Assembly: GCA_026196575.1 (NCBI GenBank) | Contig: JAPHSX010000061.1 | Coordinates: 1-37,659 of the forward strand | Length of the DNA stretch: 37,659 nucleotides | From: Gammaproteobacteria bacterium | GTDB lineage: Bacteria; Pseudomonadota; Gammaproteobacteria; Thiohalomonadales; Thiohalomonadaceae | Direction of reading: 5' to 3' | Shown here: one piece after another, positions 23,731-29,051 of the stretch | Layout: every line of letters begins with the position of its first letter | Position numbering within the stretch: the stretch's first letter is position 1 | The notes under the pieces: generated by a model | Told to the model about the DNA's origin: nothing | Seen by the model: the letters and a program-made list of their open reading frames with translations, nothing else | Databases searched by the model: none | Program-made: the position numbers and the translations under genes

Positions 23731-25407
23731 CTAGAATGCAGGCTGACTGCTTTCGAGCAACAGCGCCGTGCCGGTGATCGCCGTTTGTGACGGCGGGGTG
23801 TTGCCCTGCAGCCCATAGGTAGCGGCGATCCCCTCGGCGTTGCTACCGATAAACTGCATATCGACCCTTCCCACAAGGGCGTTCGAGGTGTCTTCTATCT
23901 TGATACCCAAATCCGTATTCAAGGCGTCGGTAATGCTCACACTGCCAAGGCTGGTGGCATTAAATGATGTTGTGCCAACGGTGCCCGAGAGGTAGACGCT
24001 ATCGACTGATTGAGCATCAAAGTTGACGTACATGTCGAAGGACTGCAGAGCACCGACATTGCCCGCCTGATCAGTCGGCATGGTACCGCCGGACAACATG
24101 TAACTAACGTATCCGCTGCGCGCCTGCACCACGGAGAGCGGCGTGATGTTGGGGGTATAGATATAGTGAAAACTACCGACAGCCTGTTCAGCTATCCCGT
24201 TCTCCAGCACTACAAAATCACCCTCCCAGCGACCCCAGTTGATCCCAATCGTGGCATCACCCCCGAGATCAACCAAAGAGGCGGTGCCAGCATCAAAAGT
24301 GCATGGATTACATTCAACATCATATACCGTGGCACTGACCGGGATATTTCCCGCCCCACCCACGGTATCAAGATAAACCTCATTGGGCGAGTAGTTGAAA
24401 ATAACCCCCCCTTCTGCCGCGATACCATCGACATTTGTACCGACAAAACCCATACCGACCATACTACCAATTGGCGCCAACGTAGCCGTGGTGGTGGTTG
24501 GCTCCTCGGGCAATGGTTCCGTGGGCAGCGGCTCTTCTGGTAGCGGCTCTTCTGGCAGCGGCTCCGTGGGCAAGGGCTCCTCGGGCAGCGGCTCTTCGAG
24601 CACGGTATCAGATATGGGCGTGATAACTGCATCCTCCTCCACGGTACCGATAGTGATTACAGTTGTCTCGTCAGAGAGCTGACTCTCGCTCACATCGGCT
24701 GCATCTGTGGTGCTACCATTGCCGGTCTCCTCATCCCCCGCGCCGTCAGCGGCCTGCCCATCCTCATCCTGCAGGGGGTAGAAGTCCGGAAGCCGCAACA
24801 GCGCACCGGCCTGCTCGGATGCGTTACGCACACGAAAATTTTGACTGGTGGAGAAGAGGCTGGCGCCGCCGTCATTTTCAACCACAATCGAGCCATGCTT
24901 GACACCGCCATAAAGCTGAACCTCGCCGGAGGGGAGGCGGTGCAAATAGGCGTGATAGGCGGTACCGCGAATCCCGATGGTGGCGACCGGGGTATTTACG
25001 CGGTAGTTCTCCGGATTCTTTTTGCCTATGGCGCCGGTAAGGGTGCGCATGCCGCCCTTGAGCAGTGAGTAGATGGCCCGCTCCCTGTCCGGCTCATTGG
25101 CGTCGAGTTGGTATTCATCCACACGAAACTGGCTCGACTCGGGGAGGCTTAACAGGCTGCCATCGCTAAAGCGGATCTGCGCGCGCCCCCCCTGCGCCAC
25201 GGTGATGGTATCGCCCTCAAGGATCTGACTACGCCGCTTCAGCACACGCATGGCGCCGCCGGCATCCTCTGCCGTAACCTCGCCGACCGCGAGCAGCACG
25301 ATACCGGCCGTGCCCTGAGCGGCCGACAGAGCACCAGGTACAACAAGAACGCCAAAAAGTAACAAGGCCGACAGTTTTGAGATAACTAATCTGAAATAGT
25401 GCTTCAT
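23731..25407 (-). CDS. FecR-domain protein with Pro-rich linker and Slam-type C-terminal barrel
   Basis: 558 residues from ATG 25407. A signal peptide (1-29, no lipobox) precedes a FecR domain at about 62-195: ILEGDTITVAQGGRAQIRF, SDGSLLSLPESS, then NYRVNTPVATIGIRGTAYHAY. An acidic spacer follows, then a proline-rich linker of EEPLP/TEPLP units (271-303). The C-terminal 250 residues are beta-rich with two related motifs, FVGTNVDGIAAEGG (321-334) and FIGSNAEGIAATYG (519-532). These resemble the G-x-N-A-E-x-hydrophobic-G-G motif of TbpB-like eight-stranded barrels that Slam proteins export. The gene is 13 bp downstream of a Slam-like barrel gene. FecR family members usually signal in trans-envelope regulation; here surface exposure or secretion is inferred, not shown. 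The C-terminal barrel call is tentative. Confidence 0.85.
   Translation of the reverse strand: MKHYFRLVISKLSALLLFGVLVVPGALSAAQGTAGIVLLAVGEVTAEDAGGAMRVLKRRSQILEGDTITVAQGGRAQIRFSDGSLLSLPESSQFRVDEYQLDANEPDRERAIYSLLKGGMRTLTGAIGKKNPENYRVNTPVATIGIRGTAYHAYLHRLPSGEVQLYGGVKHGSIVVENDGGASLFSTSQNFRVRNASEQAGALLRLPDFYPLQDEDGQAADGAGDEETGNGSTTDAADVSESQLSDETTVITIGTVEEDAVITPISDTVLEEPLPEEPLPTEPLPEEPLPEEPLPTEPLPEEPTTTTATLAPIGSMVGMGFVGTNVDGIAAEGGVIFNYSPNEVYLDTVGGAGNIPVSATVYDVECNPCTFDAGTASLVDLGGDATIGINWGRWEGDFVVLENGIAEQAVGSFHYIYTPNITPLSVVQARSGYVSYMLSGGTMPTDQAGNVGALQSFDMYVNFDAQSVDSVYLSGTVGTTSFNATSLGSVSITDALNTDLGIKIEDTSNALVGRVDMQFIGSNAEGIAATYGLQGNTPPSQTAITGTALLLESSQPAF
24499..24597 (-). repeat. Proline-rich 5-residue coding repeats in the FecR protein
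   Basis: Encodes about seven tandem EEPLP/TEPLP units as 15-bp near-identical DNA repeats, linking the FecR domain to the C-terminal domain. Such repeats can expand or contract by slippage, so linker length may vary between strains. Confidence 0.85.
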
Positions 25408-25420
25408 GAGACGGCCCCCG

Positions 25421-26758
25421 TCAGAACTCGTAACGCAGGCCGACACTGGCCTGGGTGCGGGTGTAGTTGAACATATCGATATTGGCATCGTTACGACTGT
25501 AGGTGACGCCACCCCTGAGCTGCCACTCCTTGCTCAGCAGGTGGGTGATCGATACATCCAGCGAACTCAGGAGCTCCTTGCGCCTGGGGAGAAGACCAGC
25601 AAGATAGTGTGTGCTGTAGTGGCTGTGCGTGGCGCCATATTTGAGACCCCAACCGGTAGCATCGCCCAACTGCCAGTTACCCGCAAGCTGCACGCCGTAG
25701 ATCGTGCGATCAGCCTGGGCGCGAGCCGCATCGCTATCACTCTCCGCTATCTCCCTGCCGGCGGAGAGTGACGCCACCCAGTTCATACCGTCCATTGCCC
25801 GCAGCAGCTGCACTCCCACGGTGTACTGTCGCGAGTCCTTGAGCGGTGCCTCCGGATAACTGAGATCCAGTGCCGTAAGGGTGACACCAAACTGCTGTTG
25901 CGCCCCCTGCAGCCAGGTGTTTTCAGCGGTGAGGCCAACAAGATTGCGACTGACCGTCTCATCCACACTGTATTGCTGCAGCAACAGCGCCAGTTGGCGC
26001 CGCTGGTTTTCACGCTGCCAGCGGCCGCCGCCCTGCAGCGTGGCAAGGGCGTTGTCATAGTGCCCCTCATTGGCGTGCCGGCGCCACGCACCGTCCACAC
26101 TGGCGAACAGCGAGGAGTGCTGCGTCAGCGGATGATTGACGCGCCCGCCGAGCAACAACGCAGTAAATGTGTCATCCGTCTCCAGCACACTGCTGTCGAG
26201 TGTCCACGGCAATGCACTGTCGGCAAGCGGGTCGGCGGGGCCCGCATTGATGTTGCTGTCACTGCCCGTCATCAGCTCGATATAGGCCTTGGCCGTGGTC
26301 TGGTAGCGACTCTCGCGCAGGCGAATGGCAGCCAGAAAGCGCTCGATATTGAGGGCGACCTTTGCGGGGGGGCGTGAGCGCAAGACCCGCTCAAATGCCT
26401 GGCGCGCACGGGCATCATCCCCTTGCAGGTAGTAGCCACGCGCCAGCTCCAGTCGCGCCCGATGGTGTTCGGGCTGCCGATAGACCACGCGCTCCAGGGC
26501 GAAGACGCCCTCATGCACCTCTCCGCTTTCGATGGCGGCGACACCATAATAGAAGTCGAAACTGACATCGCCCTCCAGCTGTTGGCGATAGCGGCTTGCC
26601 AGTGCATAGGCCTCTTGGTACTGACCCTCATCACTGAGACGTTGCAGCTCATCGAGCGGCTCCGCGGCGTATGCTGCCGGAGAGAGCGAGAGAAGAGAGA
26701 GCAACGCGAGCATGGCGCCGCAAAATCTGCCGTGTGACCGCACATCGCGTGAATCCAT
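25421..26758 (-). CDS. Slam/DUF560-type TPR and outer-membrane beta-barrel protein
   Basis: 445 residues. A signal peptide (1-32, ending SPAAYA) precedes TPR-like helices at about 35-145 (QYQEAYALASRY, HEGVFALERVVYRQPEHHRA, GDDARARQAFERVL). Residues 165-174, GSDSNINAGP, match the barrel-entry motif of DUF560 proteins. The rest alternates like a transmembrane barrel and ends YEF with a terminal phenylalanine, as outer-membrane proteins do. DUF560/Slam proteins move surface lipoproteins or secreted barrel proteins across the outer membrane. The next gene, FecR with a possible TbpB-like barrel, is its natural substrate candidate. The gene starts 55 bp after the cyclase stop, so one operon is likely. 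Confidence 0.82.
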   Translation of the reverse strand: MDSRDVRSHGRFCGAMLALLSLLSLSPAAYAAEPLDELQRLSDEGQYQEAYALASRYRQQLEGDVSFDFYYGVAAIESGEVHEGVFALERVVYRQPEHHRARLELARGYYLQGDDARARQAFERVLRSRPPAKVALNIERFLAAIRLRESRYQTTAKAYIELMTGSDSNINAGPADPLADSALPWTLDSSVLETDDTFTALLLGGRVNHPLTQHSSLFASVDGAWRRHANEGHYDNALATLQGGGRWQRENQRRQLALLLQQYSVDETVSRNLVGLTAENTWLQGAQQQFGVTLTALDLSYPEAPLKDSRQYTVGVQLLRAMDGMNWVASLSAGREIAESDSDAARAQADRTIYGVQLAGNWQLGDATGWGLKYGATHSHYSTHYLAGLLPRRKELLSSLDVSITHLLSKEWQLRGGVTYSRNDANIDMFNYTRTQASVGLRYEF

Positions 26759-26813
26759 CTTGACTACCGTCTCTTACGTTATTGTGAAATGAAAAAAGAT
26801 TAGCATAGCGCGG

Positions 26814-29051
26814 TTACGCTCCACCACCTTTTTGCCGGTGCTGATAGACCCCATCCCAGTCGCTGGCGGGAGGATGATCACGGTAGTGAGCGCAGCGCTG
26901 GGCGTAAAGCTGGTAGAGGGGGTGTGATGCCCGCCCCTCGAGCCGGCAAAAGATCGTGTGCGCCTCTTGCCACGCCATCCGGCGATAGGCCTGCAGCGCC
27001 AGGGCGTACTCCTCCAGCTGCTGATAGGCGACCTTTCCCGCGGGCTGCTCCAGATCCAGCGGCTCGTAGATACGCACCGCCTCGCGCTTCCCCTTCACCC
27101 TTACCCGGTCAATTTCACGACACGGGATGGCGCCCTGCAACTGCAGATAGGTCGCCTCACCGATCAGCATCGAGACGCCGTAAAATTTGGTGAGCGCCTC
27201 CAGCCGCGAACCCTGATTGACCGCGTCCCCCAGCACAGTATAGGCACGACGGTATTCGGAGCCCATGTCACCGACGTTCATCGGCCCGCTATTGATGCCG
27301 ATGCCGATATGCAGTGCGGGCAACCCCTCCTGCTGGAATTGTTGATCCAGTTGCACGGCCTGACGCAACATCTCAAGCCCTGCCTGTACTGCGTGGCGCG
27401 CATGCTGTTCGTTGTGCATCGGCGCCCCCCAGAAGGCCATGATCATGTCGCCGACATATTTGTCTATGGTGCCGTGCTGCTCAAAGATAATACGCGTCAT
27501 GGGGGAGAAGAAGCGGTTGAGGAGCTGCTTGAGTTGTCCGGCAGGGAGTGTTTCGGAGATGGCGGTAAAGTTGCGGATATCGGAGAACATGACAGTCATC
27601 TCCCGCAACTCACCCTCGAAGCCATATGAGGCCTCCGGGTGATCGCTCATCTCCTGCACCAGTTGGGGCGGTATGTATTGACCAAACATACCCTTGAGCT
27701 CCCGTCTGGCGCGCGCCTCGTGCAAAAAACCGTAGGCGAGATTGAAGGTGGAGACGGTAAACAGCATCAGCAGCGGAAGCGCCATCTCAAGGATAAAATG
27801 CATCTGCTGCCAGATCAGAAAATTAAACGTGATAAGGGCGAACGAGAGAAACAGGCTGCCCAGTATCAGCCGCAGCGGGGTAAGCAGCGGCTGCAACAAG
27901 GCGATGAGCAGACCCAGTGCCAGGGTGGCGATAAATTCGACACCGTTGGCCCATTCGGGCCGCGAGGCAAAGCGCTGATCCAGGGCGCCGGCGATAAGGT
28001 TGGCATGAACCTCCACCCCGGGATAGATCGATTGCACCGGGGTGCTGCGAAGATCGAACAGCCCGTGCGCGGTGGTACCAATAAGGGCGATAGCGCCCTC
28101 GAGTCGTTCATTATCGGCGCGTGCATTAAGCACATCGGTGGCAGAGATATAGGAAAAACTCCCCCAGCCTCCCCGATAGGGCACGACGGCACGCGCCGCG
28201 CTGTCGGTGGGAATCGTAAGCTGGCCTATGGTAATGCCCTCGATCACCTGACGCTCACCGATCAGTGCCGTATGCACCTCGATCTCATCGACAAGCTGAA
28301 ACAGACGCAGGATCTCCACGGAGAGCGAGGGATAGATATGATCACCGATACGAGCCAGCATCGGTGCCCGGCGGATGATGCCATCGCGGTCGGTGAGCAA
28401 CGAGAAAAAACCGCCGTAGGGGGTGGCCTGCTGCAACGAGGGAATGTTGGCGGTAAAGTTGGTGGCCGTGTTAGTGAGCGCCTGGCGTGCCGCATCGAGA
28501 TTTTTTATTGGCGGCGGCGCAGGCAACAAGCCGACCGGGGTGTCTTCGCGAAAATCGTAAACATAACCGAGGACGACGTCACGCCCGCGAAGCGCATCGG
28601 CAAAACGCAAATTATTGTCAAAGCGATCAAGCCGCTGCTGTAGCGACCGGATGAGGGTGCGCTGCTCCTCTGTTGCCGGCTCCCGGCGCAACACCTCGAT
28701 AATATTTTCAGCGCTATTGCGCTCGGCCTCGGGAAAGACGATGTCAAAACCGATAATCGCCACGCCCTGTGCAGCAAGCCTATCGACAAGCTGGGCGATA
28801 ATATGGCGCGGCCATGGCCAGTGGCCAACCTCTTGCAGACTTTTTTCGTCGATATCGATAATGACAATGCGCCTATCCACCGTTGGCTCGGGCAAAGAGA
28901 GATTGAGGCGCAGATCATAGGCTAACGCCTCCAGCCGTTTCAGCGGAACCCGCAGCGTGTCGGGGGCCGCGAATTGCCACCAGATAAAAAACGCCACAAT
29001 AGCGCCGCCAATGGCGAGTGGCCGTTTACGCGAGGAGAGTGCCGCGAGCAT
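26814..29051 (-). CDS. CHASE2-domain adenylate cyclase
   Basis: 745 residues. An N-terminal anchor (13-28) leads into an extracytoplasmic CHASE2 sensor (about 30-355) with VIIDIDEKSL, GHWPWPR and GFDIVFPE. Three helices at about 370-440 and a linker (GMFGQYIPPQLVQEM) connect to a class III cyclase. Metal-binding Asp491 (MFSDIRNF) and Asp535 (DKYVGDM), base-selecting Lys531 and Thr605 (AYTVLGDAVN), and transition-state Asn612/Arg616 (VNQGSRLE) are present. The Lys/Thr pair points to ATP, not GTP, so cAMP is the expected product. The first gene of a minus-strand operon with the Slam-like and FecR genes. The CHASE2 ligand is unknown. Confidence 0.93.
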   Translation of the reverse strand: MLAALSSRKRPLAIGGAIVAFFIWWQFAAPDTLRVPLKRLEALAYDLRLNLSLPEPTVDRRIVIIDIDEKSLQEVGHWPWPRHIIAQLVDRLAAQGVAIIGFDIVFPEAERNSAENIIEVLRREPATEEQRTLIRSLQQRLDRFDNNLRFADALRGRDVVLGYVYDFREDTPVGLLPAPPPIKNLDAARQALTNTATNFTANIPSLQQATPYGGFFSLLTDRDGIIRRAPMLARIGDHIYPSLSVEILRLFQLVDEIEVHTALIGERQVIEGITIGQLTIPTDSAARAVVPYRGGWGSFSYISATDVLNARADNERLEGAIALIGTTAHGLFDLRSTPVQSIYPGVEVHANLIAGALDQRFASRPEWANGVEFIATLALGLLIALLQPLLTPLRLILGSLFLSFALITFNFLIWQQMHFILEMALPLLMLFTVSTFNLAYGFLHEARARRELKGMFGQYIPPQLVQEMSDHPEASYGFEGELREMTVMFSDIRNFTAISETLPAGQLKQLLNRFFSPMTRIIFEQHGTIDKYVGDMIMAFWGAPMHNEQHARHAVQAGLEMLRQAVQLDQQFQQEGLPALHIGIGINSGPMNVGDMGSEYRRAYTVLGDAVNQGSRLEALTKFYGVSMLIGEATYLQLQGAIPCREIDRVRVKGKREAVRIYEPLDLEQPAGKVAYQQLEEYALALQAYRRMAWQEAHTIFCRLEGRASHPLYQLYAQRCAHYRDHPPASDWDGVYQHRQKGGGA

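Follow-up and report, generated by a model that had tools for sequence, protein, structure and literature searches.

We describe a row of three genes in a window of 37,659 nucleotides (contig JAPHSX010000061.1, assembly GCA_026196575.1; all positions are those of this whole stretch) from a gammaproteobacterial genome of 2.74 Mb, where a CHASE2-domain class III adenylate cyclase, a TPR-barrel protein and a FecR protein are encoded one after the other on the minus strand. Along its full length the TPR-barrel protein shows homology to the Slam (DUF560) translocons of the type 11 secretion system (T11SS), and the FecR protein is confidently predicted, from profiles and structure models, to end in a TbpB-type lobe, a fold of the T11SS cargo type. 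The apparent display pump, the protein that it would display, fronted by a FecR domain, and an enzyme that makes cyclic AMP (cAMP) together resemble a sensor spanning both membranes. We favour an interpretation in which a Slam-like translocon-cargo pair forms the basis of a trans-envelope cAMP sensor, with the FecR domain retained in the periplasm and signalling to the cyclase, and we consider the chances of this being correct to be about even.

Open reading frames (ORFs) confirm the consecutive minus-strand arrangement given in a preliminary description of the locus: the cyclase (745 aa; 26814..29051), the TPR-barrel protein (445 aa; 25421..26758) and the FecR protein (558 aa; 23731..25407) are separated by gaps of only 55 and 13 bp. 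The start of the FecR protein is taken as the ATG at 25407, an alternative GTG at 25512, listed by the ORF finder, overlapping the upstream gene. The same three-gene row is present on a plasmid of the alphaproteobacterium Paracoccus aminophilus, where the FecR protein matches TbpB_B_D, and because the order is kept in relatives the arrangement is not a matter of chance.

The relationship of the 445-aa protein to Slams is most evident at the profile level. A profile of 60 family members, compared by hhalign with six bona fide Slams, aligned over 384 columns with an E-value of 7e-44, and the barrel region alone matched Slam barrels at 2.7e-30, versus a partial match at 5e-9 for BBP2_2 and none for BcsC. 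The AlphaFold2 model (60 sequences; predicted local distance difference test, pLDDT, 93) has TPR-type helices at residues 34–150 (26309..26659), a region that also matches Pfam TPR_19 (E 8e-7), followed by exactly 14 strands at residues 155–444. The predicted barrel (residues 155–445; 25424..26296) carries a DSNIN motif at its start, within GSDSNINAGP beginning at residue 165, and terminates in YEF, so that the features on which the earlier assignment to a DUF560/Slam layout had been based, including the terminal Phe, were all found. SlipAM (PF04575) is matched at E<=1e-3 by 23 of 50 homologues, and whole-genome searches returned many barrel-family homologues above the 22-bit Pfam cut-off. The closest solved folds to the barrel are CymA and OmpG (Z 20–22); a Slam is not among the solved-structure matches, which we do not count as evidence against Slam identity. 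A BcsC-type or BBP2_2-type identity was rejected, as profile similarity to these families is far below that to Slams, despite the fact that Foldseek ranked BcsC top by fold. Sequence and model together make the 445-aa protein a likely translocon of the FecR protein.

The C-terminal part of the FecR protein (residues 305–558; 23734..24495) was modelled by AlphaFold2 from 36 sequences (pLDDT 95.2; predicted template-modelling score 0.91) as a handle followed by an eight-stranded barrel. TbpB ranked first in a Foldseek search with this model, and the best 50 VIA-align matches were almost all fHbp, TbpB, NHBA and HpuA (Z 10–12), the exceptions being two Ail entries; residues 1–252 of the modelled lobe match TbpB lobes, while 114–253 match the C-terminal barrel of fHbp. 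A profile of 39 lobe domains, searched against the whole PDB, retrieved six chains at E<=10, three of them NHBA and one each from hemophilin, TbpB and a haemophore (best E 4e-4), all of which are known Slam/T11SS cargo. NCBIfam slam_lipo is matched by 10 of the 39 lobe domains, and matches to TbpB_B_D also occur among the members. The TbpB-type barrel postulated in the preliminary description on the basis of two GxNxEGIAA-type motifs behind a Pro-rich linker is thereby supported, the motifs being GTNVDGIAA (position 323) and GSNAEGIAA (position 521).

At its other end the protein carries a FecR domain (PF04773, E 7.5e-13) at residues 66–152 (24952..25212), which is joined to the lobe by an acidic Pro/Thr-rich linker with PLPEEPLPTE repeats at residues 201–304 (24496..24807), composed of 19 Glu, 16 Pro, 12 Thr and 10 Asp among others. 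FecR proteins of the family combine a single N-terminal FecR domain with one to seven tandem TbpB-type lobes; of 21 proteins whose linker was measured, 20 have one of 56–160 aa (median 100), the exception holding an extra lobe. The FecR domain resembles the retention_LapA model in 16 of 17 cases (best E 7.6e-10, below the curated cut-off) and is also similar to Lsa33 and LipL45, models of surface proteins from leptospires. The sole hydrophobic span of the protein (residues 4–33) is at the extreme N-terminus and signal-peptide-like, so that a cytoplasmic anti-sigma segment followed by a membrane span is not seen ahead of the FecR domain, and an anti-sigma identity of the FecIRA kind was rejected on this ground. 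In FecA-FecR-FecI, a FecR domain takes part in trans-envelope signalling, but the three genes of the window include neither a sigma factor nor a TonB receptor, and the FecR protein has its Sec signal peptide as its only membrane span. A lipoprotein cargo was likewise rejected, since the signal peptide is of type I and a convincing lipobox is not found across the FecR-protein family.

Multi-lobe proteins, with as many as seven tandem lobes behind one FecR domain, are encoded in Oceanospirillum sediminis (L119:7887-14816; 2310 aa) and in L084, L136, L157 and L168. In one genome (G053, L063:3971-6808) the FecR-lobe gene is apparently split into several ORFs, covering the FecR part and lobe fragments, and is possibly broken. 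A short second FecR protein without a lobe is encoded directly upstream of the barrel gene in L121, L125, L130, L132, L061, L141 and L195.

In the cyclase, a transmembrane (TM) span at residues 11–30 precedes the extracytoplasmic CHASE2 sensor domain (residues 31–381; 27909..28961; Pfam E 3e-59), and three further TM spans fall within residues 367–438. The catalytic domain (residues 483–657; 27081..27605; Guanylate_cyc E 6e-22) aligns at E 3e-35 with the structure of Pseudomonas aeruginosa CyaB (3r5g), and the catalytic residues align with it and are all present: both Asp (D491, D535), the Lys/Thr pair (K531, T605), Asn (N612) and Arg (R616). The metal ligands and Lys/Thr pair are thus intact, as stated earlier. 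The same genome encodes a second CHASE2 cyclase (G000:C31:89287-90234, L236), which has no FecR or barrel neighbours, together with ten cyclic nucleotide (cNMP)-binding stretches; the FecR gene of the operon is the only one.

The trio recurs across many proteobacteria. In a sample of 369 genomes of the class, the barrel family is present in 65. Loci anchored on the barrel have an adjacent FecR gene in 51 of 62 cases, and a CHASE2-cyclase is also near in 17 of these 51, where about 1% would be expected by position. When loci are anchored on FecR instead, the barrel is directly upstream in 62 of 80 (median gap 15 bp), and a CHASE2-cyclase occurs in 23, of which 18 have the barrel too. CHASE2-cyclases are the commonest other neighbour (38 loci versus 12 for the next); their position and orientation relative to the pair are variable. 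Neptuniibacter and Thalassolituus are among the culturable hosts that have both the pair and the cyclase. Of the sampled genomes that hold the pair, 54 of 57 also encode a CHASE2 protein, versus 144 of the 312 others (p 4e-13, uncorrected for lineage or genome size), and the three exceptions are metagenome-assembled genomes of 64–77% completeness. Barrels without a FecR partner have CHASE2 nearby in only one of 11 loci, a difference to the 17 of 51 that is in the expected direction and not significant (p 0.15). A co-occurrence analysis had been proposed in the preliminary description, which made its reading depend on a TbpB-type barrel, a 14-stranded barrel and an association beyond this locus; both folds are predicted, and the parts travel together far beyond the window.

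Other neighbours were noted as well. A family 41 TPR glycosyltransferase (OGT-like) is encoded near the pair in L194:8697-10847 and in 11 similar loci, mostly of betaproteobacteria, and may glycosylate the displayed lobe. Beside the module in L123:9535-10323 and six similar loci, including Neptuniibacter/Marinobacterium, there is a metallo-beta-lactamase-fold protein with a match to class II cAMP phosphodiesterase (PDEase_II-like). In four Massilia loci (L164, L165, L170 and L189), genes for a short FecR protein and a CHASE2 cyclase lie several kb apart, and a Slam-like barrel is missing.

A close comparison is with NsrA/CyaK of Sinorhizobium meliloti, a system that reportedly goes back to Garnerone (2018). 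That work is cited in PMC7529298 and PMC13001267, and the former presents NsrA as a barrel protein of the outer membrane that also has FecR and TPR domains and is required for signal perception via CyaK, so providing an experimental trans-envelope route to cAMP. As in the window, FecR, TPR and an outer membrane barrel stand beside a CHASE2 adenylate cyclase. A gene on pSymB (L248:3229-6885) encodes FecR, TPR and barrel in one chain directly upstream of a CHASE2 cyclase, and as position, size and neighbour agree with PMC7529298, we identify it as NsrA. The two systems differ in that NsrA is a single chain of 1219 aa, whereas the window has separate Slam-like and FecR-lobe proteins; a domain search of the NsrA chain did not detect a TbpB-type lobe. 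A natural FecR-TPR-barrel fusion is also found in Saccharospirillum (L151:2705-4834), and in such fusions the FecR domain is expected to be on the periplasmic side.

A second precedent comes from Campylobacterota, where a cluster of CHASE2-cyclase, phosphodiesterase, FecR outer membrane protein and TPR protein has been proposed to form one pathway (PMC9239204). What it shares with the window is a CHASE2 cyclase grouped with genes for FecR and TPR proteins; the operon of the window lacks a phosphodiesterase gene, and neither homology to Slams nor a cargo lobe of the TbpB type is identified in the available portion of that report. The BiofilmReg system of Burkholderia also pairs a CHASE2 sensor with a secreted FecR-domain protein, although here a histidine kinase provides the output, the FecR domain encoded in the operon is attached to LysM, and an outer membrane barrel is not mentioned (PMC5192318). 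From the side of secretion, the window resembles the Slam/T11SS systems that handle TbpB, fHbp or hemophilin (PMC8406197, PMC12282271) in having TPR and a 14-stranded barrel beside a gene for handle-barrel cargo, but its cargo has an N-terminal FecR domain and a long linker, and the neighbouring gene is for a cyclase rather than for TonB or haem uptake. Neither T11SS survey mentions FecR or cyclases, and no paper joining FecR domains with T11SS, DUF560 or TbpB was found in the literature searched, which left most subscription journals outside its coverage. The earlier claim of a wholly new type of envelope signalling has to be narrowed in view of the Campylobacterota cluster (PMC9239204) and the working precedent of NsrA/CyaK. 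What is new is the reading, from profiles and models, of the FecR protein as cargo of the T11SS type and of the TPR protein as the likely translocon for it; as the grouping of cyclase, FecR and TPR and the NsrA/CyaK system are on record and a FecR-T11SS paper was not found, the new element is the combination of a T11SS pair with CHASE2-cyclase signalling.

In the mechanism that we favour, the 445-aa protein, assigned to the T11SS family by computed homology and fold, would act as an outer membrane translocon and move the TbpB-type lobe to the cell surface, as suggested by the lobe fold, the adjacency of the genes and the precedent of the family. The FecR domain would stay periplasmic, tied to the lobe by the acidic Pro-rich linker threading the translocon. 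Ligand binding to the lobe at the surface, or the state of display as such, would then change the FecR domain; this in turn would act on CHASE2 in the periplasm, and cAMP production by the cyclase would be altered, a final step to which the co-occurrence data and NsrA/CyaK point. A FecR domain kept in the periplasm is a more attractive picture than a FecR protein lying wholly outside because of the FecR-TPR-barrel fusions, the presence of a single FecR domain whatever the number of lobes, the long linkers measured in almost all the proteins, and the weak similarity to the LapA retention module.

Several observations weigh against this interpretation. The 445-aa protein of the window, searched alone, does not match Pfam SlipAM, and 12 of 102 complete FecR partners have no visible C-terminal domain. 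A cyclase is not near the pair in two thirds of the pair loci, so that it is possibly one of several outputs. The genome-level association of the pair with CHASE2 is, moreover, uncorrected for lineage or genome size.

The alternative that fares best, although we consider it rather unlikely, is a plain T11SS pair, where the whole FecR protein is secreted in the manner of hemophilin or displayed, FecR acts outside the cell in adhesion, matrix or ligand binding, and the tie to the cyclase is only transcriptional. The type I signal peptide without lipobox is as in the soluble T11SS cargo of PMC8406197, translocon and cargo have the same folds as in secreting systems, and both the resemblance of the FecR domain to Lsa33 and LipL45 and the absence of an adjacent cyclase from most pair loci would fit. 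Against this reading stand the occurrence of CHASE2 in nearly every pair genome and the fusion of FecR to the periplasmic side of the barrels in L151 and NsrA, which points to a periplasmic role.

Less probable still is that the barrel serves as receptor or channel, as proposed for NsrA, and not as a translocon, with a wholly periplasmic FecR-lobe protein relaying its state to CHASE2. The requirement for NsrA in perception through CyaK (PMC7529298) is in its favour, as is the fact that secretion is unproven for barrels of the family outside cluster 1 (PMC12282271); yet TbpB/fHbp-like lobes are known Slam cargo, and a row of up to seven is easier to reconcile with display at the surface than with a relay in the periplasm. 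That the cyclase is a mere genomic neighbour, functionally unlinked to the pair, would suit its variable position and orientation and its absence from two thirds of pair loci but is very improbable given a neighbourhood frequency far above chance, the genome-level co-occurrence, three-in-row genes in both gamma- and alphaproteobacteria, and the same link reported independently in Campylobacterota (PMC9239204) and experimentally for NsrA/CyaK (PMC7529298).

The sensor interpretation may extend beyond this operon. It is conceivable, though we hold it with somewhat less than even confidence, that a widespread class of FecR proteins, those bearing between one and seven lobes of the TbpB type, is T11SS cargo stuck in its own translocon with the lobes on the outside and FecR on the inside, the channel doubling as a receptor that feeds CHASE2 cyclases. 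If true, the cell would read binding at its surface, or its own export state, as cAMP. CHASE2 domains are common, and with a defined pair of translocon and cargo placed ahead of such a cyclase, its input becomes testable. T11SS cargo, with its roles in nutrient capture and in adhesion, would gain a further one in signalling, and NsrA, a receptor for plant signals, would be linked to a Slam-like architecture. Many FecR and TPR proteins of environmental bacteria that lack an annotation also gain a suggested function.

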